Source of the DNA: Antedon mediterranea | Lineage: Eukaryota; Echinodermata; Crinoidea; Comatulida; Antedonidae | DNA: 64,000 nt | Direction of reading: 5' to 3' | Assembly (NCBI RefSeq): GCF_964355755.1 | Contig: NC_092671.1 | Coordinates: 4,723,001 to 4,787,000 of the forward strand | Part shown: in pieces, positions 15,601-33,503 of the stretch | How positions within the stretch are numbered: the first letter of the stretch is position 1 | How the letters are laid out: each line of letters opens with the position of its first letter | Notes under the pieces: model-generated | The model's database searches: none | Seen by the model: only the letters and a program-made list of their open reading frames with translations | What the model was told of the DNA's origin: nothing | Made by a program: the position numbers and the translations under genes

Positions 15601-18600
15601 GAAAAAGTTGCAGGTCTAAAAACATAAGCAGTGAGTCAAGTCAACTTAACCTACAATAGGGACTTTATGAAACAGGAAGGGAAGACGGGAAGCCATAGGA
15701 TAGTGCTCAGGAAAAATTTATGAGCTTTAACAAAGTGGGCGGAGCTTAGCGTGAAATTCCTTCTTAACTTTTTGAGAACGATAAAGTTGTCATTTTCCCA
15801 TTTACGGAAAACTAGAAATAAAACTCTAAACAATATTTAGGAAATGCAAAAACAAATTTGACTGTCTTATCTATGAAATGTTGGATATCAGACAATTAAA
15901 ACCTAGTCTGAATAAACAAAGTGACTCTGTAAAAGCTAAGCTTTTCATTTGACAGGATGTTAGACAATAGGTCTTTTGTTATTTAAACTTTGACCCTTGG
16001 CTTGTGCTACTTAATTAGTTGTTGTTTTATATTTTATTCATTGGACTTGATAATGACCACATGATGGAGTCGAAACGTCGTTCTCTTTTAAGCGTTATTT
16101 TTATATTATATAAATATTTGAACTTCTAATTTAATTGTTTAATGAAATAACATTTTTATTCGGTTAAAATGGCTCTGTTAAAAGCATCGTTTAAATGCAA
16201 GGCCCTATAGCTAGGCCTACGCTATCACCAGAGCCAAGCAATTCAGAAGAGGATGGATCGGAGAAATATACTGCTGGTCAACGGGTGCGTAACTAATAAA
16301 CGGCTATGTTGACTGTATATGATTTTACGCTCTAGCGAACACCGGACATTCGTCGTCCACTTCCTAACCGTCGTGTAATACTTACATGTACTCAATATAA
16401 AAATCAGAGAAGTCTATTTTGAGTCTCTGCTCAGGATTTCCAATCAACAACCAAGTGTATACAATATCATTAGGATATTGATTAGGATACTCAGGACTTT
16501 TTATTACAACTGTGAGACAAAAAAAGAAAGAATCATTCAGGATTTATAAAACAGTAAATGAATACTACAAATAAACTGATCCAAGTGTTTACAGTGCGTG
16601 CCGTCATGTGTCGCAGCAATTTGATTTTAATATGTGATGTGATATTCTTGCCTTTTAAATATTAAATATTAACTAGAATTTAATTCGTCACTTTGACGAA
16701 TTATAGGTGATCATTTTTATCATTTTAATGAAATTAACATTTTTTAAACATGCATGTACGTTAACATGCGATCGTAAAAAGTTGATGTACGCCATCCTAT
16801 GACATGATGCATATACACTTATAGTGCTGAGTTGTACCTATTATGTGTCATATACAATATGTACAGTATATACTGTATATCTATATACAGTGTAGCATAG
16901 GTGAAATTATGGGACCCACATCATGTTCTAATTTTTTGGTATGATGGAATTATCGTAATAAACTCGAAGATGACAATTTCGAAAGATAATGAATTGAGCA
17001 AATAAATATACGGATTGGAAGAGAATTTGACACGTAGAAGCGCAATGCGCGCTCTTTGAAATTTGTATAAATTTGACGAAAGAGAGAAAAAAACTACTTT
17101 TTAACTTCAACTGACCATTTCATAATGTCACAACATCCGATAGGCCTAATTTTTATATGAATTCATATCTACATTTCATCAGCTTTTATAATAAATTATA
17201 ATCTTCAAGGTCACCTTTAATTCTGAAGAGCTGTAAGATATTCAAATATATGGTGTAGCTGAAAATACACGACCTAGGTTATTCAGGTTTTTACGCATGA
17301 TGCCGTCATCAAAATGAAAATGTTGACAACTCATGAGAAAGTTAATTAATTGAGCAAGCACATACTAAAATTTGTGCAAAAATTGGGTTCAAATAACGGA
17401 GATGCGCTCTATTGAATGTGATAACCCACACAAAAAGATAAAAATTACTAATTTTTTAATTCAAGTGGCCTTTTGATGACGTCATACCATTTTGTACGTC
17501 TAATGTGTATATACATTTATATCTACAACTCATTTGCTTCCATATTAAGTTAAAAAAATTGGGGGGTCATCTTCCATTCTGAAGAGTTATATTCATTTTA
17601 AAAAGGCCCTACTTTTTACCATTTTTAGCACTTTTGTACAATTAATGTGCGCATTTTGTCATTTTTAACGTGCTCGTATAGCGTTATTTTAAGTCTAAAT
17701 GGACTAAAAAACGGTGAATGTACTAAGGATGGTGCGTAAAATGGGATTTATATATCAAATTTTATTTTTTACGCTTTTTAAGTAACGCGCGCGCAAAAAC
17801 GTGTTTTTGCGCAGTAATTTTTAGGAACACGCAAATGGCCTAATTCATGCCCTAAATTGATCAAAACTCAATTTTGAGCTTTTTAAATTTTAAACACGCA
17901 ATTTCACGTGGATGACCTTGTAACACGTAAGTTTTTATTTGATAATATTTTTACCCTTCACCTGAACTTTACGTATAGTGAATTTTATTGATATGTAATA
18001 AAGAGTTATCGAGATATGATTGATAGTGTAATTTCACAAAATCGCGTATTAATGACGTCACGGTTAAGTGATCACGCTGAAAAGCTTATTATGGCTAAGT
18101 TAAAGTATTTGAAAGACATGGTGAAATTTTTGTGATCGTTGCCATTCAACTTTTTGAGATATTTGTTACACAAATTTGTACAGAGAGAAATAAATAATAA
18201 GAAAGAGAAGACTAGATTTGAACTCGTCACTTTGACGAGTTCGGGTTATCCGCGCATACGCAACATGCACATACTTTAAACTATATGAACCTCGACAATT
18301 ATTATGCCATCCTTTGACATGAAATAAATATGTTTACAGTGCTGAATTGTACCTATTATGTAGCATACATCATATTACAGTATTTTACAGAATAAACTGT
18401 ATGTTATATACAGTGTAGCATAGACGAAATTACGAGACCCATCTTTTAAATCCAATTATTAACACGATAACATCATCAAATTGACATATAAAGATAACCA
18501 TTTTAGAAGATAGTTATCTAAATAATTACATTAAAACAAATTTGAAGAATTTTGGGCACGTAAAAGCGAGATGCGCTCTAATTAATGTGATGAGCAATAA

Positions 18601-21600
18601 CGAAAGAGTAAAAAACTCTATATTTTACATTCGTGTGGCCATACGATGACGTCATAACATCCGAGGGGTAAAAATTCTGCATGAATTCATATCTACAACA
18701 TATCTACTTACATATAAAATTTAAAAAATTGGGGGTCGTGGATGATCCTGAGGAGCTATAATAGATTAAAAATAAGCATAATTTTGACAATATTTTGTAA
18801 CTTTTTCAACTAAAACGCACGCAAATGGTATAAATCAACGTGTTCGTATGACGTCATTTTAATTTGAAATGATGTCAATCTTTTTTAAAATGACTAGGAA
18901 AGACTGTAAAATTATAATTCAAGAGAAAAACACACGATTTTTATGCTCCGTGCGCACCTTACGCGTAATTTTTTTCGCGCGCGTGGGAATTTTTTACATG
19001 CTCAAAATCTCATGATCAGCGTAGAAAGTTGATTAGAAATTAATTTTGCGCATTTTTAAATTTTAAATGCGCGTGCGCGCGTAACTTCTTGTAAAACATG
19101 CCATTTTTAATCCATAGAAAGTTTGCCCAAGATATGACTTAAATTTTCACCAAGTGTCAATACAAAATAACTTTTGGTTTATAATCTATGATCAATCATT
19201 GAAATTCATAAAATCGCGCGTAACTTACGCTGCGCGACTCTAACGTCATATAACGAAGTTTCTTGCACATCTACACATACAGGTCAATCTTTTGACAAAG
19301 TTATACAATCTTATGTTCACAAGTAATAGAGATATGCTGGTCACAAAAATCCGGGAAAGAAAGAAGAACTAGACATGAAACTCGTCACTTTGACGAGTTA
19401 GTTATCCACTCGACAAACGTCACGTGCACGTCATACGTTAGAATATTGCACACAGAAAAATATTAAGGCATTATGAACTGAACTGAAGAATATGATATGT
19501 TGTTATTTCTGAATTCTGTTATTTTGTGTCATATACATAGTAACAGTACAATCTGTATACATTATCACAAACAGTGTAAAATAGGTGAAATTACGGGACC
19601 CGTATTTTATTGTAATTTTTAACATCTTGACGGTTTCAAAATGAAATGTAAAAGTAGAAATTTCTGAATGAAATTATCTCAGCAACAACGTATTAATGTG
19701 TAGAAGAAATTTGAATACGTGAAATATTGATGCGCGCTCTTTTAAATGTAATGAAATATAATGCAAAAGATGAAAATACGACTTTTTTTATTTAACTGGC
19801 CATATGATGACGTCACAACATTCAATTGGCACAATTTACACATGATTTTGTATCTACAATACAATAGCTTCCTGAAAACGTTTTAATTGTGATTATCACA
19901 TTTTATTCTTACGAGGCATAACAGATTAAAATTTACTGTAAAGATGAAATTAATGACCAACGTAATTTAAATTTTTAGGCATAATGACGTTAAAAAAATT
20001 AAAAAATTTTTAATTCATGCAAAAGATAGTTGATAGATCTAGAATATATTAAAATCGGAATGAAAATGGACAACGAATAAGTGGAGATGCGTTCTATTAA
20101 ATGTGATGAGCTATGACGAAAGAGACAAAAATCCTATATTTTATATTCGCGTGGCCATACGATGACGTCACAATGTCCGGTTAGCCATATTAATGCATGA
20201 TCAGATATCTACAACTCATCAACTTCCAGAATATGTAATTAAAAAAAAAGTTCTCCATGTAGTTTAGAATCTATGACTGTTTAAAAATAGGCATAATTTT
20301 GACGAATTTTGGAACTTTTTCACCAAATACGCGTGCAAATTATCTAATTCGACGTGCTCGTATGACGTAATTTTAAGTCGAAATTGTTTAAAATTTGGTA
20401 ACATTACTAGAAAAGGCTGAAAAAACATAAATCAAGCGAAAAAAATATGTTTTTAACGCTACGTGTGCACCGCGTGCGTAAAAATGTTCGCGCGCGTGGG
20501 AATTTTTGACATGCTCAAAATGACATGAAACGCATAGAAAGTTGATTAGAAGTTTATATTTCGCACGTTAAAATTTTAAACGCGCGTGCGCGCGTAACTT
20601 TTTGTGAAACATGCTATTTTTAATCCATAGAAAGTTTGCGCTTGATATGACTTAAATTTTCACAAAGTTTCAAAACAAAATTATGTTTGGTTTTTAGTCT
20701 ATGATCAATCATTGAAATTCATAAAATCGCACGTAAGTCACGTTGCGCAACTCTGACGTCATTCAAAAATAGGAGGTGCACAAGTTCACGTAAATGTCGA
20801 TATGTTGACAAAGTTACGATATGTTCTGTCTACACGTTTTAGAGAAACGCGACGCACAAAAATGACAGAAAGAAAGAAGTACTAGACATGTAACTCGTCA
20901 CTTTGACGAGTTAGTTATCCGCTCGACAAACGCCACGTGCACGTCATACGTTAGAATATTGCACACAGAAAAATATTAAGGCATTATGACCTGAACTGAA
21001 GAATATGATATGTTGTTATTTCTGAATTATGTTATTTTGTTGTCATATACATAGTATACACAGTACAATCTGTATACATATCACAAACAGTGTAAAATAG
21101 GTGAAATTGGGACCCGTATTTTATTGTAATTTTTAACATCTTGACGGTTTCAAAATGAAATGCAAAAGTAGAAATTTCAGAATAAAATTATCTCAGCAAC
21201 AACATATTAACGTGTAGAAGAAATTTGAATACGTGAAATATTGATGCGCGCTCTTTTAAATGTAATGAAATATAACGCAAAAGATGAAAATATGACTTTT
21301 TGTATTTAACTGGCCATATGATGACGTCACAACATTCGATTGGCACAATTTTCTTATGATTTTGTATCTACAATACAATAGCTTCCTGAAAACGTTTGAA
21401 TCGTGATTATCACATTTTATTCTTACGAGCTATACCAGATTAAAATTTACTGTAATGATGAAATTAATGACCAACGTAATTTAAATTTTTAGGCATGATG
21501 ACGTTAAAAAAATTAAAAAATTTTTAATTCATGCAAAACATAGTTGATAGACCTAGAATATATTAAAATCGGGGTGAAAATGAACAACGAATAAGTGGAG

Positions 21601-24600
21601 ATGCGCTCTATTAAATGTGATGAGCTATGAAGAAAGAGACAAAAATCCTATATTTTATATTCGCGTGGCCATACGATGACGTCACAATGTCCGGTTAGCC
21701 ATATTAATGCATGATTCGATATCTACCACTCATCAACTTCCAGAATATGTAATTTAAAAAAAGTTCTCCATGTAGTTTAGAATCTATGACTGTTTAAAAA
21801 TAGGCATAATTTTGACGAATTTTTGAACTTTTTCACCAGAAACGCGTGCAAATTATTTAATTCGACGTGCTCGTATGACGTAATTTTAAGTCGAAATTGT
21901 TTAAAAGTTGGTAACATTACTATAAAAGGCTGAAAAAACATAAATCACGCGAAAAAAATATGTTTTTAACGCTACGTGTGCACCGCGTGCGTAAAAAGTT
22001 TCGCGCGCGTGGGAATTTTTGACATGCTCAAAATGACATGAAACGCATAGAAAGTTGATTAGACGTTGATTTTTCGCACGTTAAAATTTTAAACGCGCGT
22101 GCGCGCGTAACTTTTTGTGAAACATGCTATTTTTAATCCATAGAAAGTTTGCGCTTGATATGACTTAAATTTTCACAAAGTTTCAAAACAAAATTATGTT
22201 TGGTTTTTAGTCTATGATCAATCATTGAAATTCATAAAATCGCACGTAAGTCACGTTGCGCAACTCTGACATCATTCAAAAATAGGAGGTGCACAAGTTC
22301 ACGTAAATGCCGATATGTTGACAAAGTTACGATATGTTCTGTTTACACGTTTTAGAGAAACGCGACGCACAAAAATGACAGAAAGAAAGAAGTATAATAC
22401 AGAAAAAAACTAGATTTGAACTCGTCACTTTGACGAGTTCGGGTTATCCGCGCATACGCAACATGCACATACTTTAAACTATATGAACCTTGACAATTAT
22501 TATGCCATCCTTTGACATGAAATAAATATGTTTACAGTGCTGAATTGTACCTATTATGTAGCATACACCATATTACAGTATTTTACAGAATAAACTGTAT
22601 ATATGTTATATACAGTGTAGCATAGACGAAATTACGAGACCCATCTTTTAAATCCAATTATTAACACGATGACATCATCAAATTGACATATAAAGATAAC
22701 CATTTTAGAAGATAATTATCTAAATAATTACATTAAAACAAATTTGAAGAATTTTGGGAACGTAAAAGTGAGATGCGCTCTCGTTTAAACGCAATGAACT
22801 TTGACGCAAGAGATGAAAATATGACTTTTTGAATTCAACTGGCCATATGATGACGTCACAACATCTGATTGGCAAAATATTCACATCAATTCGTATCTAC
22901 AATCCAATAGCTTCCAGAAAACGTTTTAATCATGATTATCACTTTTTAATCTGACGAGCTATAACAGATTGAAATTTACTGTAAAGATGAAAATAAGTGA
23001 CCCAAGTTATTTACGTTTTTAGACATGATGACGTCATAAAAATTAAAATATTTTTAATTCATGCGAAAGATAGTTGATTGACGTAGACAATATTATAATT
23101 TCGGGGGAAATGGAATACGTATAAGCGAGATGCGCTTTGTTGAATGTGATGAGCAATAGCGAAACAGTAAAAAATCCAATATTTTACATTCGTGTGGCCA
23201 TACGATGACGTCATAACATCCGAGTGGTAAAGATTCTGCATGAATTCATATCTACAACATATCTGCTTACATATTAAGTTAAAAAAATTGGGGGTAACGG
23301 TTGATCCTGAGGAGCTATAATAGATTAAAAATAGGCTTAATTTTGACATTATGTTGTCACTTTTGCAACTAAAACGCGCGCAAATGGTGTAAATCAACGT
23401 GTTCGTATGACGTCATTTTAATTTGAAATGATGTCAATCTTTTTTAAAATAACTAGGAAAGACTGTCAAATCATAATTCAAGAGAAAAACACATGATTTT
23501 CGTGCTCCGTGCGCACCTTACGCGTAATTTTTTTCGCGCGCGTGGGAATTTTTGACATGCTCAAAATGTCATGATCAGCGTAGAAAGTTGATTAGAAATT
23601 AATTTTGCGCATTTTTAAATTTTAAATGCGCGTGCGCGCGTAACTTTTTGTGAAACATGTCATTTTTAATCCATAGAAAGTTTGCCCTTAATTTAACTTA
23701 AATTTTCACAAAGTGTCAATATATAATGACTTTTGGTTTATAATCTATGATCAACCATTTAAATTCATAAAATCGCGCGTAACTCACGCTGCGCGACTCT
23801 AACGTCATATAACGAAGTTTCTTGCACATCTACAGCTACAGGTCAATCTTTTGACAAAGTTATACAAAGTTATGTTCACAAGCAATAGAGATATGCTGGT
23901 CACAAAAATCCGGGAAAGAAAGAAGAATAACTAGACATGAAACTCGTCACTTTGACGAGTTAGTTATCCGCTCGACAAACGCCACGTGCACGTCATACGT
24001 TAGAATATTGCACACAGAAAACTATTAAGGCATTATGACCTGAACTGAAGAATATGATATGTTGTTATTTCTGAATTCTGTTATTTTGTGTCATATACAT
24101 AGTATACACAGTACAATCTGTATACATATCACAAACAGTGTAAAATAGGTGAAATTATGGGACCCGTATTTTATTGTCATTTTTAACATCTTGACGGTTT
24201 CAAAATGAAATGCAAAAGTAGAAATTTCAGAATGAAATTATCTCAGCAACAACATATTAACGTGTAGAAGAAATTTGAATACGTGAAATATTGATGCGCG
24301 CTCTTTTAAATGTAATGAAATATAACGCAAAAGATGAAAATACGACTTTTTGTATTTAACTGGCCATATGATGACGTCACAACATTCGATTGGCACAATT
24401 TTCACATGATTTTGTATCTACAATACAATAGCTTCCTGAAAACGTTTTAATCGTGATTATCACATTTTATTCTTACGAGCTATAACAGATTAAAATTTAC
24501 TGTAAAGATGAAATTAATGACCAACGTAATTTAAATTTTTAGGCATGATGACGTTGAAAAAATTAAAATATTTTTAATTCATGCAAAAGATAGTTGATTG

Positions 24601-27600
24601 ACCTAGAACATATTAAAATCGGGGTGAAAATGGACAACGAATAAGTGGAGATGCGCTCTATTAAATGTGATGAGCTATGACGAAAGAGACAAAAATCCTA
24701 TATTTTATATTCGCGTGGCCATACGATGACGTCACAATGTCCGGTTAGCCATATTAATGCATGATTCGATATCTACAACTCATCAACTTCCAGAATATGT
24801 AATTAAAAAAAAGTTCTCCATGTAGTTTAGAATCTATGACTGTTTAAAAATAGGCATAATTTTGACGAATTTTTGAACTTTTTCACCAGAAACGCGTGCA
24901 AATTATTTAATTCGACGTGCTCGTATGACGTAATTTTAAGTCGAAATTGTTTAAAAGTTGGTAACATTACTATAAAAGGCTGAAAAAACATAAATCACGC
25001 GAAAAAAGCATGTTTTTAACGCTACGTGTGCACCGCGTGCGTAAAAAGTTTCGCGCGCGTGGGAATTTTTGACATGCTCAAAATGACATGAAACGCATAG
25101 AAAGTTGATTAGAAGTTGATTTTTCGCACTCCAAAATTTTAAACGCGCGTGCGCGCGTAACTTTTTGTGAAAGATGCTATTTTTAATCCATAGAAAGTTT
25201 GCGCTTGATGTGACTTAAATTTTCACAAAGTGTCAAAACAAAATTATGTTTGGTTTTTAGTCTATGATCAATCATTGAAATTCATAAAATCGCGCGTAAG
25301 TCACGTTGCGCAACTCTGACGTCATTCAAAAATAGGAGGTGCACAAGTTCACGTAAATTTCGATATGTTGACAAAGTTACGATATGTTCTGTTTACACGT
25401 TTTAGAGAAACGCGACGCACAAAAATGACAGAAGGAAAGAAGTACTAGACATGAAACTCGTCACTTTGACGAGTTAGTTATCCGCTCGACAAACGCCACG
25501 TGCACGTCATACGTTAGAATATTGCACACAGAAAAATATTAAGGCATTATGACCTGAACTGAAGAATATGATATGTTGTTATTTCTGAATTCTGTTATTT
25601 TGTGTCATATAGTATACACAGTACAATCTGTATACATATCACAAACAGTGTAAAATAGGTGAAATTACGGGACCCGTATTTTATTGTAATTTTTAACATC
25701 TTGACGGTTTCAAAATGAAATGTAAAAGTAGAAATTTCTGAATGAAATTATCTCAGCAACAACGTATTAATGTGTAGAAGAAATTTGAATACGTGAAATA
25801 TTGATGCGCGCTCTTTTAAATGTAATGAAATATAATGCAAAAGATGAAAATACGACTTTTTTTATTTAACTGGCCATATGATGACGTCACAACATTCAAT
25901 TGGCACAATTTACACATGATTTTGTATCTACAATACAATAGCTTCCTGAAAACGTTTTAATTGTGATTATCACATTTTATTCTTACGAGGCATAACAGAT
26001 TAAAATTTACTGTAAAGATGAAATTAATGACCAACGTAATTTAAATTTTTAGGCATAATGACGTTAAAAAAATTAAAACATTTTTAATTCATGCAAAAGA
26101 TAGTTGATAGATCTAGAATATATTAAAATCGGAATGAAAATGGACAACGAATAAGTGGAGATGCGCTCTATTAAATGTGATGAGCTATGACGAAAGAGAC
26201 AAAAATCCTATATTTTATATTCGCGTGGCCATACGATGACGTCACAATGTCCGGTTAGCCATATTAATGCATGATCCGATATCTACAACTCATCAACTTC
26301 CAGAATATGTAATTAAAAAAAAAGTTCTCCATGTAGTTTAGAATCTATGACTGTTTAAAAATAGGCATAATTTTGACGAATTTTGGAACTTTTTCACCAA
26401 ATACGCGTGCAAATTATCTAATTCGACGTGCTCGTATGACGTAATTTTAAGTCGAAATTGTTTAAAATTTGGTAACATTACTAGAAAAGGCTGAAAAAAC
26501 ATAAATCAAGCGAAAAAAATATGTTTTTAACGCTACGTGTGCACCGCGTGCGTAAAAATGTTCGCGCGCGTGGGAATTTTTGACATGCTCAAAATGACAT
26601 GAAACGCATAGAAAGTTGATTAGAAGTTTATATTTCGCACGTTAAAATTTTAAACGCGCGTGCGCGCGTAACTTTTTGTGAAACATGCTATTTTTAATCC
26701 ATAGAAAGTTTGCGCTTGATATGACTTAAATTTTCACAAAGTTTCAAAACAAAATTATGTTTGGTTTTTAGTCTATGATCAATCATTGAAATTCATAAAA
26801 TCGCACGTAAGTCACGTTGCGCAACTCTGACGTCATTCAAAAATAGGAGGTGCACAAGTTCACGTAAATGTCGATATGTTGACAAAGTTACGATATGTTC
26901 TGTCTACACGTTTTAGAGAAACGCGACGCACAAAAATGACAGAAAGAAAGAAGTATAATACAGAAAAAAAATTTGATGAAACAGGACGATTACAAGGAGT
27001 TATCCGCTACTAAGCGGATAACTAACTAGACCTGAAACTCGTCACTTTGACGAGTTAGTTATCCGCACGACAAACGCCACGTGCACGTCATACTCGTTGG
27101 AATTTTGCACACAGAAAAAGATAATGGCATTATGACCTGATCTGATCTGAAGAATATGATATGTTGTTAGTGCTGAATTCTGTCAATTTTGTATCATAGT
27201 ATCAGTATAAACAGTATAATCTGTATACATATTACATACAGTGTAGAATAGGTGAAATTACGGGACCCGTCATTTATACCATTTTTTAACATGGCGACGG
27301 TATCAAAATGAAACACTAAAATAACAATTTCGGAAGGATATTATCTCAGCAACAACATATTAACCTGTAGAAGAAATTTGGATACGTGAAATATAGATGC
27401 GCGCTCTTTTAAATGTGATGAACTATGACGCAAAATATAAAAATACAACTTTTTTTATTCAACTGGCCATATGATGACGTCACTACATCTGATTGGCAAA
27501 ATGTTTACATGAATTCGTATCTACAATCCAATAGCTTCCAGAAAACGTTTTAATCGTGATTATCACATTTTATTCTTACGAGCTATAACAGATTAAAATT

Positions 27601-30600
27601 TACTGTAAAGATGAAATTAATGACCCACGTAATTAAAATTTTTAGGCATGATGACGTCATCAAAATTAAAATATGTTTAACTCATGCGAAAGATAGTTGA
27701 TTGACCTAGACAATGTTAAAATCTCGGTGAAAATGGAAGATGGATAAGCGTGATGCGCTCCATTGAATGTGATGAGCAATAACTAAAGAGACAAAAATCC
27801 TATATTTTACATTTGTGTGGCCATATGATGACGTCACAACATCCGTGAAGAAAAAATTCTGCATGAATTCATATCTACAACATAACTGCTTTCATATTAA
27901 ATTAAAAAAATCAGGGGTAACGGTTGATCCTGAGGAGCTATAATAGATTCAAAATAGGCATAATTTTGACAATATTTTGTAACTTTTGCAACTACAACGC
28001 ACGCAAATGGTCTAAATCAACGTGTACGTATGACGTCATTTTAATTTGAAATGATGTTAATCTTTTTAAAAATGACTAGGAAAGGCTGGAAAATCACAAT
28101 TTAATAGAAAAAAACATGATTTTCATGCTGCGTGCGCACTGCACGTGTAAAATTGTTCGCGTGCGCGGGAAATTTTGACATGCGCAAAATGTCATGAATG
28201 GCGTAAAAAGTTGATTAGAAATTAATTTTGCGCATTTTAAAATTTTAAATGCACGGGCGCGCGTAACTTCTTGTAAAACATGCCATTTTTAATCAACAGA
28301 AAGATTGCCCTTGATATGACTTAAATTTTCAGAAATTGTAAAAAAAAAAATTATGCTTGGTTTTTAATCTAAGATCAATCATAAAAAATCATAAAATCGC
28401 GCGTAAGTCACATTGCGCAACTCTGACGTCATTCAAAATAGGAGGTGCACAACTTCACATAAATGCCCATGTTTTGACAAAGTTATGAAATGTTATGTTT
28501 ACCCATTTCAGAGAAACGCGTCTCACAAAAAGGAAGGAAAGAAAGAAGAATAATACAGAAAAATATTGATCCAATACAATCACAAGGAGTTATCCGCTAC
28601 TAAGCGGATAACTAACAAAGAAGATGATGAAGAAAAAGATATTTACAATCACAAGGGTTATCCGCAACTTAAAGTTGCGGATAACCAAAAAATTTGATGA
28701 AACAGGACGATTACAAGGAGTTATCCGCTACTAAGCGGATAACTAATAATACAGAAAAAAAATTTGATGAAACAGGACGATTACAAGGAGTTATCCGCTA
28801 CTAAGCGGATAACTAATAATACAGAAAAAAAATTTGATGAAACAGGACGATTACAAGGAGTTATCCGCTACTAAGCGGATAACTAAATAACAAAGAAGAT
28901 GAAAAAAGATATTTACAATCACAAGGGTTATCCGCAACTTTATAAGTTGCGGATAACCAAATAAAGATTTCATACAATAACAATAGGTGATCATTTTATT
29001 CTAAATGATCACCTAATAAGGTAAAAGGTATGTGAGTCATGTGAACATAGATAAATGAACTGTGTGGAGATCGTAATGCCTCAGAATTGGTTGGATGGTC
29101 ATTTTCCCCTTAACCTCTCTATATTAATTTTTAAGTAGGTGCTCATTTACCCGTTGAGACTGGTGTTTTTATCGGGAATTGAACCTGGGTCTTCTCCTAT
29201 ATGATAGTGAATTGTCCTAACCACTCTGAATGATATCACATTTTAAACAGACGAAAAAAATGATAGTAAATTGAACTTTGCCCTTAATTTTCTACACCAC
29301 CAAGGAAAAATTGCACTACACACTGGCTATTAAACAATCAGATAGCACGAAATGTATTATTTGAAATTAATCCTACCTCCATTTGCTGGAACATTGTATG
29401 TATAATTATTAAGTGTTGCTGTTGGAATTGCATCAGATGGCTTGTTGTTATGAACTTCTGGAAAAAAGAAGAAATTTGACAGTTAGAAATGTGTCAACCA
29501 TGATAGCTCTAGCACAATTAACAAGTCCCTAACCATGTGTAGATTGAGGGTTCAAACACCCACCCCCCACCCCCTTTTTTTGCTTGAAGCTTTTTTCTTC
29601 TAGAGACAAGCAGCGGAAGTATGGGTTAAACATGCCAAATCCCTGTAAAAATCCGGGGGTCTTTCAATCCATGACACTTCACAAGGGCTTTTAGCAAACA
29701 CAGATATTTCTTGCAACCACCTAACTTTAATTGTAGAGCTCTACGGAAGTTGTATGTCATGTTCCACCCATCCTCTGTCTACACTGTCAAACTCTATGTG
29801 ACAAAAAGTTTGATATGCTCATTATATATTAATATAAATATTTATATCTGTAACTCTGACAGAGTGTTCTAGATGGCATAAATAAATGCTGATTCAAAAT
29901 AAGCTATGAGTTGTTAATGAAGGCTTGTCTGACCATTCCAACATATGGACATAATGGTGTTATAGCACTAGCATATTTGGCCATATATTTGGGCATCACT
30001 TCCATATTTGGGCAAATCACAAACTATTTTGATAGTGTAGACAGAGGTAAGACCTTCTGTGCATTTAGGCCATATACTTTTTTTGAACAAAATGAAAATG
30101 CACATAAATATAAATATTTCAACCTACTGTTCGTAGTAGAAGTTTGATACACTTGTAATGTCAATGCAAACCCACGTCCACTGCTAGAGTAGTCACTAAC
30201 AAACGTAATAGTAACTTTGGAACCTTGTGTTCTTAACTGATCGTATACCACTTGATTTCCAGTAAATTGCAAATTCCCACCATTTTCGCTAGTAATATAC
30301 ATAACATCATACATGTTTTCCATGTCAATATCCAGTATATCAATCACAATTTGTTGACCAGAGGAAGCGGAGATTTCATATACAGATTGCATTAGATTTG
30401 GATAATTATTTGGATAGTTCGAGGAAGTCAAGCGTAACAATGAGCCGGTCTTAAGTGTTTCTGTTATTACATTTTGTTTACGATCTGGAACTGTAAAGAA
30501 AATAATAGATAACATATTAGTAATCATAACACACCTAAGAACATTCTTACCATTTGATTGCTTCGAATTCAAATAGTGGCATTCATAATTTCAGTCTATT

Positions 30601-33503
30601 CAATGGAAATGTTCTGCTAAATTATTCTATTCAACAGCCAGATTGTTGTACAAATGTTGAGGTTGTTGCAACGCAGGCCAATAAACCAATCTATAGTAAG
30701 CTATGGATTATCATTTAGCATCTGATTTTTGTATATAGTACTTAATAGTGTATTTCTATTCAATTACCAACCTCCTGGACTGTCCTCTATGTGCATTCGA
30801 AACCCAGATCCACTTGTAGATCCCATTGAGTAGAAAGTTACATAAATCACACTAGCACTGGTCACATAATTTTTAGGTAGATTTTTGCCATTAAGGCGCT
30901 GTAAAAAAAAAAACATATGAATATTGACAATAGTACAATTTGCATTTTAAACAAAAAGAGAAAAGGTTCAAGCTAACAGGCAAATAAAAAAAAACATGAC
31001 AAACACAAACCACACAAAATGCAGGTAAAAACTCTAGAGATTGTTGAACCAACACTCTTAACCACCCAAAATGGTAATGACGCAACAAAAACAACATTTG
31101 TTTACCAAATACTTATCTGGATAGCTGTCATCCTCAATCTGTAGATAGTCATCACTACTGATGTCAAAGGCATCAAAGACAAATTCAAGTCCACTGGTGT
31201 CATCTGATGAATGTAGCATATATGTGCAGTTAATCTGTTCAGGATAAACATCGGGCCAAAATAAAGATGAAATATTTGCTGGGCTACGGAAGTGTAGAAG
31301 CTCATCACAGTCAGTTTTGACTACAAAAGAAATAATTAGTTACATAACATTACATAACACAAACACACACATTGTTGCATTATTGCTGTTGCAGTGAGTA
31401 ACCTTAATGGATGGACCCTTCACAGTATTTTTGAAATAAATGGATACATTAACATACCTAGCCTAGGCTATGCCTAGAACTGTAGTAGTACTAACCTAGG
31501 GGAATCCCTAACCTAGTAGGTCTAGGCATAACTAGTTTAGTAGTAGTCCACGGTCTATCTAGCTCTCTGGCCTATCTTTGCTAGTTCTAGATAGAGTAGC
31601 CTACTAGCTAGGCCAAGCAAGGCCCTATCGTAATAGCCTCGTCCTGGTTGATACTATAGGCCTATACTACAGACAGGAGCAGCATTAATAACTATGATGG
31701 TATCCTTTAAATCAAGTCTTAATCTTATTTTATATAGGCCTAACAACGTCAAATATTAAATTAGCAGATTTATAAAGATTATAAAGATATATGAAAAGAG
31801 CGGTCAAATTAAAACCGAAAAACAGTCATGCTCTGCTAAAAAAAATCTATTTTAAAGAGGGCGCAATAACAAATAGTAAAAATAATATTCGGCAAAATTT
31901 GATTAACATAAATAAAAGTACATAGGCCTCAGAGTAGTCGACCAAACCAAGTCAGAAAATATTTAAAAATGGATTGTTTACTACATTAAAAATACATGTA
32001 ATTAAATTGTTTTTGGTGTTCATGCCATTTTTACTAGAAAACTTACATGAAAAACTGTAATTTAAAGAAAAAAATAGTCACAAGTTTGGGTTTTGGTTAT
32101 AAATCCCATTATTTGGTCTTTTTTGTAAGTTTTTTAAATAACTTAATTAAAATTGCCTATTTCAAAGTATGATGTTATTAATCTGGATCCCCATTGTGAA
32201 AATACATTATAAGCAACAATACATTTAAATTTGGTAAGTTTCAGACTGCTGACCATGGGTGAAGCTCTGTCTACACAAAATTTATGTGACAAAAATGTGA
32301 TCATTTGCCCATGATTACATATTTGGGCATATCACTACCATATTTGGCCACATCACACTTTTTTGTCAAACGAGTTTGATAGTGTAGACAGAGCTTAAAT
32401 GTGCTCACATGGACTGACATTTAAGAATAGTTTTTAATAGTAGGTCTATAACATTTAGACTAAAATAGCGATTGTTATTTCTTTAATGATAGGAATCTTT
32501 TAAAACGTCTGTACCTGAAGTATTGTACGATAACGAGAATCCCTTTCCATTGATAGATTTATCCGTGATAAATCGAAACCAAACTTCTCGGCCGTTTAGT
32601 TCCAAAGTATCTGGGATATTGCTGGTAGAATCATCTCCTGTTAGATACTCGGCATTTTCAATATCACTGGAATCGCTACCAATACCATAATACAAGATGT
32701 CCAACTTATTTTCCAGTTGAAAATCTGTAATTGTGACTGTATACTGGTACGCTAACGGAACGTCAATGACGTATGTGCAATCTAGGTTATTGTCGTAACC
32801 ACCAGCCGGATTATTTGAAATATCACCTGTAGATTCAGTGTAGGTTCCACCGCATGACGATTGCCCTGAAAGAAAAAGCCATAATAGTGAAGACAGTACG
32901 CAATCATTGTTTCTCTCTACAGATATCCGGCCCTGCTGTAGGCCTAGTAATGAAGAATTCTGACCTAGAGAACTTGGTCGAAATCCTGCTCGAGAATTAT
33001 CAAATAGACTCATACTATAAAGGCCTATAATAAATATTTATAATATACGCATTAATTAGGCCTTCCGTTCGATTATGTGCAACATATATAACATCTAGAT
33101 CACTAACAATAATGATGACTATAATTATGCATAGAGCACCTATTACATCAACATTTTTTAAAGAAAAAACATTAATGCATTATTTATTTTGCATAGTGGA
33201 TCACAGGTAAAAGGGTTGATAGATTTAGTTTTTTTAATTTCAAATTAGTTAAAAAAAATTCCCTTAGTCCATAATCAAGTGTAACACTGTATTCAATCTT
33301 ATCTTACTTAGATCTTACTTTCTATATGCTTAGAAAGCGTGCTAGAGGCTTAAAACAAGTAAAAATGAATCAAAACAAATACATTTGAAGAAGAAAAAAA
33401 GATTATAAAACTACATACCGTTACTAATGGGAACATTAATAAAGTTTAAAATAACTCCAATTATCAGTAACCTGTAACCCAACATTCTCGTCGGTTCCTT
33501 CAT
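456..33503 (-). CDS. Large secreted CUB / C-type lectin / FN3 multidomain protein (3' end beyond window)
   Basis: Thirty coding exons can be joined with intact reading phase into about 2,058 residues. The order is signal peptide, CUB1-3, a 27-residue linker, CUB4-6, (CTLD-FN3) x4, CUB7-10. Every domain is bounded by phase-1 introns, the usual mark of exon-shuffled extracellular modules. Each CTLD, and seven or eight of the CUBs, are split by one further intron. There is no membrane segment in the visible part, so a secreted protein is likely, but a C-terminal anchor could lie off the left edge. CUB domains bind proteins, often through Ca2+, and CTLDs bind glycans or proteins; an adhesive, matrix or innate-recognition role is inference. 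I recognise the domains but no named orthologue. Intron 6 (about 12.9 kb) holds a nested transposon pile. A few donors are weak (GTTGGT, GTTTGT), so individual boundaries could shift slightly. Confidence 0.85.
1007..1739 (-). CDS. Exons 28-29: CUB domain 9
   Basis: Exons 1,526-1,739 and 1,007-1,191 are joined in phase 2, as in CUB4. Motifs are ATCGSTVNVTVGSQDITSPL, YENNVNCVWKIMGSEN, FNKFDVEYGYDYILVGVGDD, AWIQLISDDSVTAGGFDLSV. If the GTTAGT donor at the exon end were not used, the frame would stop two codons later (TAG). The next exon continues in phase, so splicing on is preferred. Confidence 0.78.
1345..1478. mobile_element. Short inverted-repeat element, family A (copy 1)
   Basis: Ends resemble TTAAGCTCTGTCTACAC and its complement; the inside has the family's TGTGATGTGCCCATATATGG and TTTGGGTACATCACACTTTT words in inverted order. 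It lies in the intron between exons 28 and 29 of the CUB gene. This is a diverged copy. Confidence 0.6.
2155..2496 (-). CDS. Exon 27: CUB domain 8
   Basis: An uninterrupted 342-nt exon, phase 1 to 1, like CUB1 and CUB3. Motifs are QCQYAFTLKSGTSLRIQSSS, YPNQYPNYENCTWTL, VNFFDLDLEPAYDRLSFNG, MTSDYSITGRGFSLSAEQ. Both Cys of the first pair and the Glu/Asp/Asp Ca2+ set (LEPAYD, TSDYS) are present. It is the closest in layout to CUB3. Confidence 0.87.
2985..3798 (-). CDS. Exons 25-26: CUB domain 7
   Basis: Exons 3,575-3,798 and 2,985-3,114 are joined in phase 0. The first encodes DACNGQPPFTDSTGNITSPN, PPNANCAYQVTLTDAKSRVR, FMDIDLIGMDDSLIITDLN. The second encodes TLSGTNIPKDYLSMSNSVEV, QGTGFWIVYKED. 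The first disulfide pair is kept. The half-domain intron lies in the same place and phase as in CUB2 and CUB6, which points to a common ancestor for those three. Confidence 0.82.
3285..3480 (+). repeat. SINE-like fragment
   Basis: It carries words typical of dispersed marine-animal SINE bodies: AAGCAAAACACTTTCTTTAC, CCATCCACCCAGGTGTACAA and ATGGGTACCTGG. It lies in the intron within CUB7. Family assignment is from memory of the motif and is tentative. Confidence 0.4.
4383..4667 (-). CDS. Exon 24: FN3 domain 4
   Basis: A 285-nt exon, phase 1 to 1. Motifs are FSVTLQWTPSPQNCEVLEYR, IDGLQSNTMYMFSISAFTAW and YSEAITVATQNFTNG. The conserved single Cys is in PQNC. The donor is GTTTGT, which is weak, but it gives a correct join into CUB7. 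Confidence 0.84.
4809..4937. mobile_element. Short inverted-repeat element, family A (copy 2)
   Basis: About 130 bp, with inverted ends AAAGCTCTGCCAACACTATC and GATAGTGCAGACAAAGCTTT. It lies in the intron between FN3-4 and CTLD4. There is no coding capacity, so it would need a transposase in trans. Confidence 0.75.
4977..5842 (-). CDS. Exons 22-23: C-type lectin-like domain 4
   Basis: Exons 5,660-5,842 and 4,977-5,180 are joined in phase 1 after LWIG. Landmarks are GECPYKYEKINGVCYKF, WTDAQRKCMEDDAVLVIIED, GSFFWGDCNVTSPW, WGPDEPINEEDDQDC, GTWNVKSCDQINKYVCEF. Seven cysteines occur. EPI replaces EPN and WNV replaces WND, but the acidic EEDDQD run keeps several possible Ca2+ ligands. Confidence 0.87.
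6039..6174. mobile_element. Short inverted-repeat element, family A (copy 3)
   Basis: About 136 bp, with ends AGCTCTGTCTACACTATC and a matching complement ending GTAGACAGAGTTTT. The interior reads CCAAATATGGTAGTGATATG. It lies between CTLD4 and FN3-3. Confidence 0.78.
6425..6724 (-). CDS. Exon 21: FN3 domain 3
   Basis: A 300-nt exon, phase 1 to 1. Motifs are NRVNLTWTPSPKRCDVIGY, VSGLEPESNYTFMINAKAFY and SVRLTTFVKAG. It has the same isolated cysteine (KRC) as the sister repeats. Sequons are NLT, NAS, NYT and NES. Confidence 0.86.
7572..8478 (-). CDS. Exons 19-20: C-type lectin-like domain 3 (best Ca2+-site match)
   Basis: Exons 8,290-8,478 and 7,572-7,775 are joined in phase 1 after YWIG. 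Landmarks are MCPLGYDEGNDYSCYKF, WEEARNDCSEDGAYLINID, GSWYWSDC, WAPGQPGNLNTIEHC, GQWNDANCGRTNYYICE. Seven cysteines occur. It has QPG in the EPN/QPD position, a following Glu, and an intact WND, so it is the copy most likely to bind Ca2+ and perhaps a galactose-type sugar. The QPG variant makes specificity uncertain. Confidence 0.88.
8728..9018 (-). CDS. Exon 18: FN3 domain 2
   Basis: A 291-nt exon, phase 1 to 1. Motifs are VQMYWTPSIRLCDVLGYVV, LDTLTEYEFSVSAKTVTYG and VERVLTG. The single Cys (RLC) sits at the position shared with FN3-1, -3 and -4. The sequence of the C and C' strands is the most divergent of the four repeats. Confidence 0.84.
9050..9425. repeat. Inverted-repeat stretch with AAAGAAGC/GCTTCTTT words
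   Basis: Words such as GGGCTTCTTTTCGAAAT, GAGCTCCTTTTCGAAATAAG and, in opposite sense, TCGAAAAGAAGCCCATA recur over about 370 bp. They suggest a decayed foldback or MITE copy inside the intron between CTLD2 and FN3-2. Termini are not clear. Confidence 0.4.
9628..10264 (-). CDS. Exons 16-17: C-type lectin-like domain 2
   Basis: Exons 10,070-10,264 and 9,628-9,816 are joined in phase 1 after IWFG. Landmarks are ECPLNYQLNVLNNKCYQV, WVEARRQCLQTHDADLVIID, WSQINTC, YTEPNCAVMLDANGW, PCNETNAFVCEYF. Seven cysteines occur, as in the other three copies. An EPN triplet is present, but the loop before the next Cys is very short and WND is replaced by WDS, so this copy has probably lost normal sugar binding. 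Confidence 0.86.
10665..10964 (-). CDS. Exon 15: FN3 domain 1
   Basis: A 300-nt exon, phase 1 to 1, encodes a fibronectin type III fold: the B-strand Trp (INLSWTPSSLGCYVSGYQL), then a Leu-Pro-x-x-x-Tyr-like turn (LSNLTPATNYSFELITYAF). One cysteine lies in the B-C region (SSLGC), at the same place in all four FN3 repeats here. Sequons are NGS, NLS, NLT and NYS. Confidence 0.85.
11267..11969 (-). CDS. Exons 13-14: C-type lectin-like domain 1
   Basis: Exons 11,772-11,969 and 11,267-11,461 are joined in phase 1 directly after WWIG. Landmarks are NCPDGYIAGNDGETCYKF, WVVARQDCLQTPNSDLVVIQ, WWIG, GSWVWVDC, VENCVRF, DDMCNQTFPYICKE. Seven cysteines occur: the six of a long-form CTLD plus the one in WVDC. 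In place of EPN and WND it has EPTNS and YTDD, so canonical Ca2+-dependent mannose binding is doubtful. Sequons NLS, NST and NQT suggest glycosylation. Confidence 0.88.
12195..12330 (+). repeat. tRNA-derived SINE (candidate)
   Basis: An A-box-like AGTGGTCAAGAGGTATG is followed, about 35 bases on, by a B-box GGGTTCGATTC. Then comes a non-tRNA body with GTAGTAGGGCCGAGTATGG and CAAACATCTGGCC. It lies in the intron between CUB6 and CTLD1. Confidence 0.45.
12336..12996 (-). CDS. Exons 11-12: CUB domain 6
   Basis: Exons 12,782-12,996 and 12,336-12,456 are joined in phase 0. Residues include DGCIIESLFKDHGVITSPSY, DADCIWIIQITGLYRVHLTF, ESYYDRLFVGGVSDGSN and NAKGFNISYRV. The first disulfide pair and the YD Ca2+ motif are kept. 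This is the last CUB before the lectin/FN3 block, and its final phase-1 junction leads straight into CTLD1. Confidence 0.82.
13154..13286. mobile_element. Short inverted-repeat element, family A (copy 4)
   Basis: About 133 bp, flanked by TTAA on the left and TTTAA on the right. Ends are AGCTCTATCTACACTATC and GATAGTGTAGACAAGGCT. It lies between CUB5 and CUB6. Confidence 0.75.
13519..14371 (-). CDS. Exons 9-10: CUB domain 5
   Basis: Exons 14,231-14,371 and 13,519-13,698 are joined in phase 1. The first has CIHEYTLTSGEKYDVSYAST and GYCQWIIKAPRGKHIQLGFT, giving the Cys pair. The second has NLYETLEFGTGSNPANVASR, VLTGRNSVGSF, LWVAATIRDSVSGFKFQV. The half-domain exon structure and the GTG...ASR motif match CUB4, so the two probably arose by tandem duplication. 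Phase is 1 on both outer sides. Confidence 0.82.
15023..16509 (-). CDS. Exons 7-8: CUB domain 4
   Basis: Exons 16,386-16,509 and 15,023-15,207 are joined in phase 2. The first reads VVIKSPEYPNQYPNDIVYTW and DFSDFYIEY. The second reads IYDVLVIGTGNDPSNMASRY, FTGSNLPEDIV, AWIQFNADSSGSRKGFMLTV. No cysteine is present. The GxGxDPxxxASR...TG insertion after the second Ca2+ Asp recurs in CUB5 and, more loosely, in CUB1 and CUB9. This is the first exon downstream of the transposon-filled intron. Confidence 0.82.
23931..25444 (+). mobile_element. Nested element 6 (type i 5' end; own 3' tail not found)
   Basis: CTAGA at 23,931, hairpin at 23,941-23,961, tag AGTTATCCGCT. About 1.5 kb of body ends at GACAGAAGGAAAGAAGTA, where element 7 begins. 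Type-i starts and ends are equal in number over the pile (five each), but the inner group has one tail too few and the outer group one too many. Confidence 0.5.
25445..27022 (+). mobile_element. Element 7: uninterrupted type-i copy
   Basis: CTAGA at 25,445, hairpin at 25,455-25,475, tag AGTTATCCGCT, continuous body, tail ACAGAAAAAAAATTTGATG and 3' hairpin at 26,999-27,022. At 1,578 bp it gives the intact length. The body holds two diverged halves, each with GGCCATAYGATGACGTCAC, showing an internal duplication of about 350-400 bp. Confidence 0.6.
27026..28612 (+). mobile_element. Element 8: uninterrupted type-i copy, more diverged
   Basis: CTAGA at 27,026, three bases after the end of element 7; hairpin at 27,036-27,056, tag AGTTATCCGCA. 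Continuous body to a type-i hairpin at 28,589-28,612. Its tail (CCAATACAATCACAAGGAG) differs from element 7's. At 1,587 bp it confirms the unit length. Confidence 0.6.
28744..28883 (+). repeat. Tandem copies of the 70-bp type-i 3' tail and hairpin
   Basis: Two identical 70-bp units (28,744-28,813 and 28,814-28,883) each contain ACAGAAAAAAAATTTGATG, ACAGGACGATTACAAGGAG and the GTTATCCGCT / AGCGGATAAC hairpin. They follow a third copy ending at 28,743. One unit is one more than the outer elements require. Confidence 0.7.
29150..29235 (-). repeat. tRNA-like SINE head (candidate)
   Basis: On the minus strand TCAGAGTGGTTAGGAC (29,229-29,214) resembles an A-box and GACCCAGGTTCAATTCCC (29,191-29,174) resembles a B-box, with about 22 bases between. 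The stems do not close into a good cloverleaf. Confidence 0.4.
29377..29457 (-). CDS. Exon 6: short linker exon
   Basis: An 81-nt exon, phase 1 to 1, encodes 27 residues (KVHNNKPSDAIPTATLNNYT and a short tail), rich in Asn, Pro and Thr with one N-glycosylation sequon (NYT). It sits between CUB3 and CUB4, just upstream of the very large intron. Splice signals are good (CCAG acceptor, GTAGGA donor). It resembles no folded domain and could be an alternatively used spacer. Confidence 0.55.
29771..30047. mobile_element. Short inverted-repeat element, family A (copy 5, enlarged)
   Basis: Ends CTCTGTCTACACTGTCAAAC and TTTTGATAGTGTAGACAGAG match family A. The inside is twice the usual length and repeats the ATATTTGGGCAAATCAC-type words, suggesting an insertion or internal duplication. 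It lies just downstream of CUB3 in the intron. Confidence 0.65.
30128..30490 (-). CDS. Exon 5: CUB domain 3
   Basis: This uninterrupted 363-nt exon encodes a CUB core: LRLTSSNYPNNYPNLMQSVY, then IDILDIDMENMYDVMYITSE and VTITFVSDYSSSGRGFALTL. The NYPNNYPN and SDYSSSGRGF motifs are diagnostic. No cysteine is present, so the conserved disulfides are lost while the Asp/Glu Ca2+ positions (DIDMENMYD) remain. Phase is 1 on both sides. Confidence 0.85.
30772..31320 (-). CDS. Exons 3-4: CUB domain 2
   Basis: Exons 31,106-31,320 and 30,772-30,898 are joined in phase 0. The first holds CDELLHFRSPANISS, then INCTYMLHSSDD and FDAFDISSDDYLQIEDD; the second holds RLNGKNLPKNYVTSAS and a GSGFRMHIED ending. 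Together they give one CUB of about 114 residues with a single disulfide pair. The donor of exon 4 reads GTTGGT, which is weak, but it is the only site that keeps frame with CUB3. Confidence 0.8.
32262..32397. mobile_element. Short inverted-repeat element, family A (copy 6)
   Basis: About 135 bp, ends AAGCTCTGTCTACACAA and GATAGTGTAGACAGAGCTT followed by AA. It lies in the intron between CUB1 and CUB2. Confidence 0.75.
32515..32865 (-). CDS. Exon 2: CUB domain 1
   Basis: This single 351-nt exon, phase 1 to phase 1, encodes residues about 29-145. It opens SCGGTYTESTGDISNNPAGG, followed by NLDCTYVIDVP, so the first CUB disulfide pair is present. The core reads DFQLENKLDILYYGIG, where Glu and Asp fall at usual CUB Ca2+ ligand positions. 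It closes with VWFRFITDKSINGKGFSLSY. The second disulfide pair of a four-Cys CUB is missing. The acceptor follows a TTTTTCTTTCAG tract and the donor is GTACAG. Confidence 0.85.
33419..33503 (-). CDS. Exon 1: start codon and signal peptide of the CUB/CTLD/FN3 gene
   Basis: The ATG is at 33,501-33,503 on the minus strand. The 28 encoded residues have a basic start (MKEPTRMLGYR), a hydrophobic core (LLIIGVILNFINV) and a polar end (PISN), which is a textbook signal peptide. The exon ends in phase 1 at a GTATGT donor and joins CUB1 in frame. A second Met (MLGYR) six codons in could serve as an alternative start with a cleaner signal sequence. Confidence 0.75.

Follow-up and report, generated by a model that had tools for sequence, protein, structure and literature searches.

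Elements and end hairpins of the pile

The window (the whole 64,000-nucleotide stretch of Antedon mediterranea DNA analysed) carries a pile of hairpin-bounded elements between positions 16673 and 29016. As the original prediction had it, eight hairpin starts are present, at 16673 (class iii), 18212 (ii), 19369 and 20882 (i), 22410 (ii), and 23931, 25445 and 27026 (i), together with eight tag-built hairpins on the 3' side (hereafter closers), ending at 27025 and 28615 (i), 28688 (ii), 28746, 28816 and 28886 (i), 28960 (ii), and 29016 (iii). The tag counts are equal at the two ends, with five i, two ii, and one iii at each. The start core TCGTCANNNTGACGA, allowing at most one mismatch, occurs eight times in the window against 0.05 expected. 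The three tags claimed for these ends hold for the counts, but the exact i tag GTTATCCGCT is present in three of the five i starts only, since 19369 has GTTATCCACT and 27026 has GTTATCCGCA.

Coordinates are given here on the forward strand, in the direction of the original prediction. The outermost element (class iii, tag AGGTGATCATTT, 16673..29016) has its start hairpin and tag at 16673-16716, its own body up to about 18211, and its tag hairpin at 28984-29015; under the published polarity, this element would lie on the minus strand. Its tail holds a class ii element with tag GGGTTATCCGC (18212..28960; own body 18212-19368, tag hairpin 28925-28958), in the tail of which lies the class i element with the mutated start tag (19369..28886; own body 19369-20881, tag hairpin 28859-28884). 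The next class i element, within the tail of the latter, has one start and two tag hairpins (20882..28816; closers 28719-28744 and 28789-28814), and its closer region belongs to a 70-bp tandem repeat at 28687-28886, perfect over 2.9 copies. A second class ii element is placed within the A-run of this copy (22410..28688; own body 22410-23930, tag hairpin 28655-28686), and its tail includes a class i element that has a start hairpin and, on the bracket parse, no closer of its own (23931..25444). Two complete, uninterrupted class i elements then adjoin each other, at 25445..27025 (tag hairpin 26998-27023) and 27026..28615 (tag hairpin 28588-28613). According to the hairpin calls, the pile terminates with seven stacked tag hairpins (28588..29016), in the order i, ii, i, i, i, ii, iii. 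The 27026 element is closed by the first, and the remaining six are the displaced ends of interrupted elements.

The closers had been described as following nearly the reverse order of the starts. Reading across interrupted tails by eye, most pairs are indeed nested (16673-29016, 18212-28960, 19369-28886, 22410-28688, 25445-27025, and 27026-28615), but the order is imperfect: start 23931 is unclosed, while 28746 and 28816 both close the single start 20882. Parsing the window strictly as a stack of same-tag pairs fails: four of the eight closers find a match, and four starts are still open. We read 23931 and 25445 as a composite block, in which two starts share one closer at 27025.

Six joins between the flanks of interrupted elements were tested in the window: two restore an intact tail exactly and two more within one edit. 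The flanks of the block 23931-28615 join exactly into an intact ii tail, the join at closer 28816 of element 20882 is also exact, and the joined flank of 19369..28886 lies at most one edit from an intact tail. The joined flanks of 18212-28960 and 22410-28688 had no match to an intact tail in the fetched sequence, perhaps due to the A-run length in the case of the latter.

Landing sites and tag matching in the genome

Landing in the GAAAGAAAG/poly-A tail of an older copy, as proposed for the window, was seen there and in three further piles. In pile P1 the brackets balance, all 13 starts being closed to depth zero. The strict parse of pile P3 gives 15 starts and 14 closers, with one start unclosed, and its flanks suggest one block that lacks two closers and another that has one too many; therefore, some P3 pairs in the following insertion and join counts are doubtful. 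The usable joins, after exclusion of pairs without a parent in the stretch or adjoining another element, were 25: the joined flanks restore the intact tail exactly in 16 (shuffled partners: mean 3.3, maximum 9) and within one edit in 20 (mean 6.7, maximum 13). The remaining five fail even when one edit is allowed, and four of these are in P3. In the 16 exact cases there is thus no target duplication.

In the piles examined, insertion is nearly always in the purine-rich tail just inside the older copy's tag-hairpin end, or at its edge. The strict parse paired 38 insertions in three piles: tail sequence received 29 of them, six adjoin a closer, and three are elsewhere. Each of the 38 has an A on its left; on the right, 19 have a T, 13 an A, and six another start. 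The restored site is most often A^T in the piles examined. The tail zone as drawn contains 9 of the 172 AT dinucleotides of one class iv element and 5 of the 185 of one class i element.

Random combination of 5' and 3' tags, which had been named as the outcome that would speak against paired ends, was not found on contig 1. Indeed, 87 of the 91 scored starts meet a same-tag closer among the matches listed (shuffle mean 34, maximum 52). This test used exact matches up to 29.79 Mb (405 of 442 typed events), with eight ii starts and no ii closers; 124 of the 215 starts had no closer as the next event within 1.8 kb and were hence unscored. Isolated start-closer pairs, that is, those with no second typed event within 3 kb, have the same tag in 25/25 cases among the matches listed. 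The four misfits were fetched, and three of them contain a fitting closer outside the search patterns. In the misfit at C1:7928350-7931300, the closer was parsed as iv, and we judge it to be probably ii from its likeness to the closers of copies L040 and L041. At C1:5797600-5799500, the sequence resembles a recombinant of iv and i.

Genome-wide exact counts of starts and closers are 508 and 513 for class iii (the palindrome counted once), 1153 and 962 for class i (a few near-palindromic closers may count on both strands), and 581 and 553 for class iv, and the reversed-pattern control gave zero for the starts and closers of all three. One search pattern, ending in H, did not cover class iv, and one set of 100 places comprises the first places on contig 1, not a random sample. 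No recognisable closer was found for the v-type starts L027 and L028 or for start L030. Predicted duplex energies separate iii from the other tags by ~9-13 kcal/mol; i differs from ii and iv by only ~1-3.4 kcal/mol, and ii hardly differs from iv. On these predictions the tags are unequally distinct, with iii far from the others and i, ii, and iv close together.

An autonomous relative and the known Helitron groups

A Rep-helicase element with like ends, looked for as a check on the original prediction, was found at C1:12346151-12324656. This ~21.5-kb element has a CTAGA-hairpin-tag start and a tag-hairpin end, in the same layout as the pile elements, and contains one open frame of 2,898 codons (C1:12335.9-12327.2 kb) with Pfam matches to OTU, DUF6570, Helitron_like_N (8.5e-33), PIF1 (2.3e-27), and Exo_endo_phos (6.4e-8). 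By Pfam match, the Rep domain, PIF1-type helicase, and fused endonuclease that define Helentrons are thus present in the one autonomous copy examined. Its frame is antisense to the usual orientation relative to the published ends, as is also reported for Helentron-Da-40 (PMC4067079). Classes i-iv share the hairpin and tag layout with this copy, but their 5' bodies do not match it, and its first 350 bases group with none of them; by sequence comparison, the bodies of i-iv appear not to be derived from the one autonomous copy fully read. The Rep frames listed include 39 of at least 2,800 aa. For a further Rep frame (C1:11518506, ~3,100 aa), a search of C1:11522400-11531700 for its 3' end found a pile of another subfamily instead.

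On the basis of the end layout and of this relative with OTU, Rep, PIF1 helicase, and endonuclease, the pile elements are, with high confidence, non-autonomous Helentron-type (HINE-like) elements of the Helitron2 group, serially inserted into one another. The Helentron/HINE biology, serial nesting, and matched end tags originally put forward are therefore supported, but the polarity and the novelty claim are not. The published polarity runs the other way: the tag hairpin corresponds to the published 5' end, and the CTAGA hairpin to the published 3' palindrome, followed by CTAG. Matched end tags are already known, as ATIR (PMC3627910) or subTIR (PMC4067079). Short asymmetric inverted repeats of this kind occur here, palindromic at the published 5' end and subterminal at the 3' end, beside the palindrome.

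The likeness to Helitron2 (Bao and Jurka 2013, PMC3627910) includes ATIRs of 8-15 bp (the 5'-ATIR forms a hairpin and lies 0-2 bp from the end, and the 3'-ATIR lies just inside a second hairpin), compensatory changes, by which two related elements there retain the end features, and a RepHel that is reversed in some of the members. Conversely, Helitron2 inserts between TTTT and T/C, whereas insertion here is after A (mostly A^T), and the accessible text of that account has no mention of deep self-nested piles. Helentrons and HINE/DINE-1 (Thomas 2014, PMC4067079) share the Rep-helicase fused to an endonuclease, the OTU protease, 12-15 bp subTIRs, a 3' palindrome, many non-coding derivatives, and clustering. 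Their reported insertion is into TT, without target duplication (PMC4067079, PMC5148889), whereas the target here is A^T or an A-run and not TT; furthermore, OTU is here in Rep's frame. FoHeli of Fusarium oxysporum (Chellapan 2016, PMC5148889) resembles the pile elements in hairpins, ATIRs, self-insertion, reversed frames, and several 5' termini with one 3' terminus, the duplicated stretch being typically <200 bp; the portions of that paper available to us give one nested example and some multiple termini, whereas dozens of nested copies in four piles were examined here. Cg_HINE of the Pacific oyster (PMC7492417) has the same layout of subTIR, microsatellite, and palindrome, and family-specific changes at both ends, but there tandem repeats lie inside one element, while here whole elements are stacked.

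A canonical Helitron (Helitron1) has a 5' TC, a 3' palindrome then CTRR, A^T insertion, and no 5' hairpin. Such an element on the minus strand was hinted at by CTAG, the palindrome, and A^T, and was rejected because the other end is a hairpin that starts with TT, without TC. This TC-less hairpin end, together with the frame of the autonomous copy running in the direction of the original prediction, points to a Helitron2/Helentron layout with a reversed frame. Against the Helentron-type assignment speak the A^T or A-run target, the orientation of the frame (for which there are published exceptions), the mismatch between the bodies of i-iv and the autonomous copy, the brackets that do not balance strictly in the window and in P3, and the five joins that fail.

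Self-insertion and multiple termini are already published for this group, while the scale, the landing zone of ~50 bp within an older copy, and the use of A rather than TT as the insertion site have no match in the literature covered. Among the open-licence papers that the searches listed, none describes deep self-nested Helentron piles in its title or abstract opening.

Origin of the piles and of the matched tags

Following the published polarity, each element begins at the tag hairpin (the palindromic 5'-ATIR, two bases from the end) and ends with the 3'-ATIR, the 9-bp-stem palindrome, and CTAG. The Rep-helicase-endonuclease of an autonomous Helentron would mobilise the pile elements, and the pairing of 5'- and 3'-ATIR would pick the end point, as proposed by Bao and Jurka for replication (PMC3627910). 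A new copy landing in the tail of an older one displaces the tag hairpin of the latter, so that displaced hairpins stack like closing brackets. Missing or extra hairpins may reflect composite units, produced by read-through past the first 3' end or, alternatively, by initiation at an outer 5' end and stop at the first 3' end.

Rolling-circle replication that skips end signals has been proposed as the source of tandem Helitrons, both for bats and silkworm (cited in PMC4067079) and for plant centromeres (cited in PMC5148889). The head-to-tail units of the array, their near-constant spacing (44 of 78 short spacings at 1500-1550 bp), and the units without one end, in composite-like blocks (two in the window and two in P3), could be explained by one such rolling-circle product. 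We consider this very improbable: the missing ends are mostly present and stacked in order, the displaced ends tend to resume the body's stop point (the 16/25 exact joins), and the window alternates units of different class that are 55-82% identical. Nor do the piles examined look like one recent tandem duplication, the other outcome named as refuting. Segmental or unequal-crossover duplication of one nested block as the source of most of the window pile is also improbable, if slightly less so. It draws on the near-identical pairs (19369 and 25445, 99.3%; 20882 and 23931, 97.8%), on the 94.9% identity of the two ii copies (22410 and 18212), on the 70-bp closer repeat, and on the apparent iv/i recombinant on contig 1. 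However, a single simple duplication would not put the pairs in opposite order (ii-A-B then ii-B-A); furthermore, the interruptions of the two ii copies fall at different points of the tail, and the same architecture recurs in the other piles examined. Body identity between 27026 and the remaining four i copies is 82-84%.

The tags could match simply through joint descent of both ends within a family, without a pairing function. This is plausible while falling short of being probable. The 5' bodies group by tag class, and only one clear mosaic (L034) was detected among 67 aligned copies, kept by length and class (seven further entries were left out; in one count, 9 of 64 starts were excluded by length). 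A pairwise scan had led us to expect more mosaics. That scan also favours joint descent, since the class i copies 27026 and L011 differ in their right half (0.62-0.80 per comparison window) as much as i does from ii or iv, so that the two ends are not demonstrated to have diverged together by class. Against joint descent, L034 combines iii ends on either side with a middle part nearest to i, and class i copies retain the AGTTATCCGC arms despite differing hairpin loops and 3' bodies. The claimed co-variation of tags beyond body similarity is no more than hinted at by the pairwise scan and the mosaic test.

A rather doubtful reading is that resident copies are homing sites: a transposase on the origin-like tag hairpin would open the adjacent purine-rich tract and steer incoming copies there, and tags as strongly different as iii and i/ii/iv would allow several families to use a common enzyme and to nest, none of them terminating at the signals of another. 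If so, the elements would stack on themselves and spare genes, and self-targeting could be viewed as a safe haven.

Rolling-circle transposons leave few traces of how sites and ends are chosen. The matched brackets of the piles preserve much of the insertion order, and where a bracket is broken, replication may have read through an end or stopped early. Many natural events thereby become available for testing the end-pairing model of Bao and Jurka and the direction in which replication runs, and the piles show one way in which dispersed transposons can give rise to satellite-like arrays. The striking aspect is how often this genome repeats the self-nesting; more than two thousand starts were counted in it.

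Tag agreement between starts and closers

In the window (C2:4723001-4787000), eight starts lie at 16673-29016 with the layout CTAGA-spacer-AAYTCGTCACTTTGACGARTT-tag, together with eight tag-built hairpins at the other end of the elements (closers), whose numbers per tag equal those of the starts, as had been read from the sequence. The hairpin core has 8 matches there versus 0.05 expected. In the genome searched (354 Mb, 18 contigs), the hairpin core with stems of class i, ii or iv occurs at 2,166 places with at most one mismatch and the reversed pattern at none; a variant of the hairpin whose loop is longer was found at 228 places (at most two mismatches). Among the matches listed, 91 of 100 core places (a non-random sample, because they are the first ones on contig 1) have a same-strand neighbour within 2 kb, and 44 of their 78 spacings below 2.5 kb measure 1500-1550 bp. 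Judged from the listed places without counting, class iii looks more dispersed than this core.

The genome-wide search for exact tags gave near-equal numbers of starts and closers for class iii (508 and 513) and class iv (581 and 553), and 1153 and 962 for class i. Pairing was scored among the matches listed on contig 1 up to 29.79 Mb, where the next same-strand event was a closer at most 1.8 kb away (91 of 215 starts). The claim that the 5' tag predicts the 3' hairpin held: 87 of the 91 starts have the same tag at the closer (27 i, 17 iii and 43 iv), against a mean of 34.1 and a maximum of 52 in 10,000 shufflings. Random combination of tags was not found on contig 1, where none of the 25 isolated pairs (8 i, 13 iii and 4 iv) is mismatched. 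The four misfits were fetched: in one the iv closer is present with a base change, in another the i closer is present with a longer loop, and in a third a ii start is followed by a GG-type closer that the parser labelled iv, the closer patterns including none for ii. The last is a iv start followed by an i closer and then a iv closer, for which a deletion between nested copies is the best reading.

Serial insertion and the landing zone

The near-reverse closing order described for the window pile stands in part. A strict bracket parse fails, leaving start 23931 without a closer and one surplus closer between 28689 and 28816. When the remaining partners were proposed by eye from interrupted tails (the purine-rich tract just inside the closer), two of the six joins tested were exact, two were within one edit and two were unmatched. 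On either side of the pile, domain matches mark two fibronectin III and two CUB frames (6393-6794, 10594-10986, 30024-30572 and 32483-33013, minus strand); the pile may lie between exons of animal extracellular-type genes.

Three further piles were parsed strictly. P1 (C1:917800-940100) has 12 iv starts and one i start with an identical set of closers, and reaches zero balance at the final closer. The brackets of P2 match apart from one final start and two closers whose starts are absent from the fetched stretch. P3 (C1:13549200-13573650) has 15 starts versus 14 closers, and one start stays open. Judged from its flanks, P3 also seems to hold two blocks (C1:13568.8-13573.4 kb and near 13549.4 kb) with 190 bp of other DNA between them, one of three starts and a single closer and the other with an extra closer; both are likely composite transposition units.

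When the flanks of nested elements were joined and the resulting 20-mer was sought uninterrupted elsewhere, 16 of 25 were found exactly, rising to 20 when one edit was allowed; with the partners shuffled, the means were 3.3 (maximum 9) and 6.7 (maximum 13), respectively. Across 38 insertions, with pairs taken from the strict parse, 29 lie in tail sequence and 6 abut a closer, in line with the prediction that new copies land in older tails; of the other three, two lie in non-element DNA and one 3 bases beyond a closer. The base to the left is A in 38/38, and to the right stands T (19), A (13) or another start (6). Of the 172 AT dinucleotides of one iv element, 9 fall in the tail zone, therefore A^T alone does not account for site choice.

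Possible pairing function, shared descent and known systems

Co-variation of the tags beyond body similarity fared less clearly. It is favoured by one copy, L034, which has iii at both ends and a middle nearest to i, but this is the one clear mosaic among 67 aligned copies and the 5' bodies group by tag, so tag matching beyond shared descent is weakly shown. Between full elements of i and ii, and of i and iv, likeness is 80-96% in some stretches of the middle, compared with about 63-79% in the last and some of the first windows. The right halves of two class i copies, L011 and W27026 (starting at 27026 in the window), have a likeness of 0.62-0.80, thus the divergence on that side is not specific to a class. 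Predicted duplexes set iii apart from the other classes by roughly 9-13 kcal/mol, but i apart from ii/iv by only about 1-3.4 kcal/mol. This makes an end-pairing code plausible, one in which two classes, not three, stand well apart.

Diversified, matched end tags with serial nesting at one site had been taken as undescribed; the tags are a known feature found again, the ATIR, with a pairing model in print (PMC3627910), or the subTIR (PMC4067079). In the excerpted text of PMC3627910, Helitron2 has ATIRs of 8-15 bp, of which the 5' one folds into a hairpin and lies 0-2 bp from the terminus, and the 3' one adjoins a second hairpin; compensatory changes, an end-point pairing model and, for some members, a reversed RepHel are also described. 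The excerpt of PMC4067079 gives Helentrons and HINEs subTIRs, a 3' palindrome, an endonuclease fusion and clusters, and that of PMC5148889 describes self-insertion of FoHelis and multiple 5' termini with a single 3' terminus. The latter case resembles the one-start/two-closer block of the window, and its two-start/one-closer block fits read-through. The kind of transposon is ordinary and its habit is unusual, taken to an unusual degree; piles that keep bracket order, with their narrow landing zone, are the part deserving follow-up.

An autonomous relative and other subfamilies

A Rep-helicase element with the same ends had been suggested; a relative with like ends was found at C1:12346151-12324656. 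It starts with CTAGATCTG-hairpin-TGGTTATCCGC and ends in a GGTTATCCGC hairpin, and the iii element whose tail it occupies also contains two i copies. One open frame of 2,898 codons encodes its OTU, DUF6570, Helitron_like_N, PIF1 and Exo_endo_phos domains. The frame is read from the CTAG end towards the tag end, the reverse of the polarity usually published. Starts with its hairpin loop, CTTGAGG, occur at C3:12453835-12476428 and other places, several serially spaced at about 1.56 kb, and are probably its short non-coding relatives.

A profile search gave 87 genome matches to PF14214. Five more Rep frames on contig 1, chosen by eye (C1:3140090, 5738048, 22668439, 22701280 and 24450961), have starts on the same strand within about 30 kb; other Rep frames have no start nearby among the matches listed. 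Rep frames also cluster about 20-45 kb apart at C1:14509036, 14533260 and 14554478 and at C8:799805-936138. The three on contig 1 may have ends of a different series, since no listed start outside class iv comes closer than about 90 kb.

Downstream of a Rep frame, a further pile (L070:4380-8000; C1:11526.8-11530.4 kb) has units about 1.15-1.2 kb apart, hairpin loops ACTACGG/ACTTCGG and GGTTATCCGC tags at each end. Nine class-v starts among the matches listed, all on the plus strand, recur at intervals of roughly 30-70 kb over C1:8128282-8518302. The two copies read (L027 and L028) have the layout CTACAATTC...ATTTGTGATCATTGT and no recognisable closer; the class is perhaps a decayed copy within a larger repeated segment. 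Inside a iii-like element, two long perfect inverted repeats (L029:680-800; arms of 31 and 30 bp, loops of 3 bp) resemble fold-back duplications.
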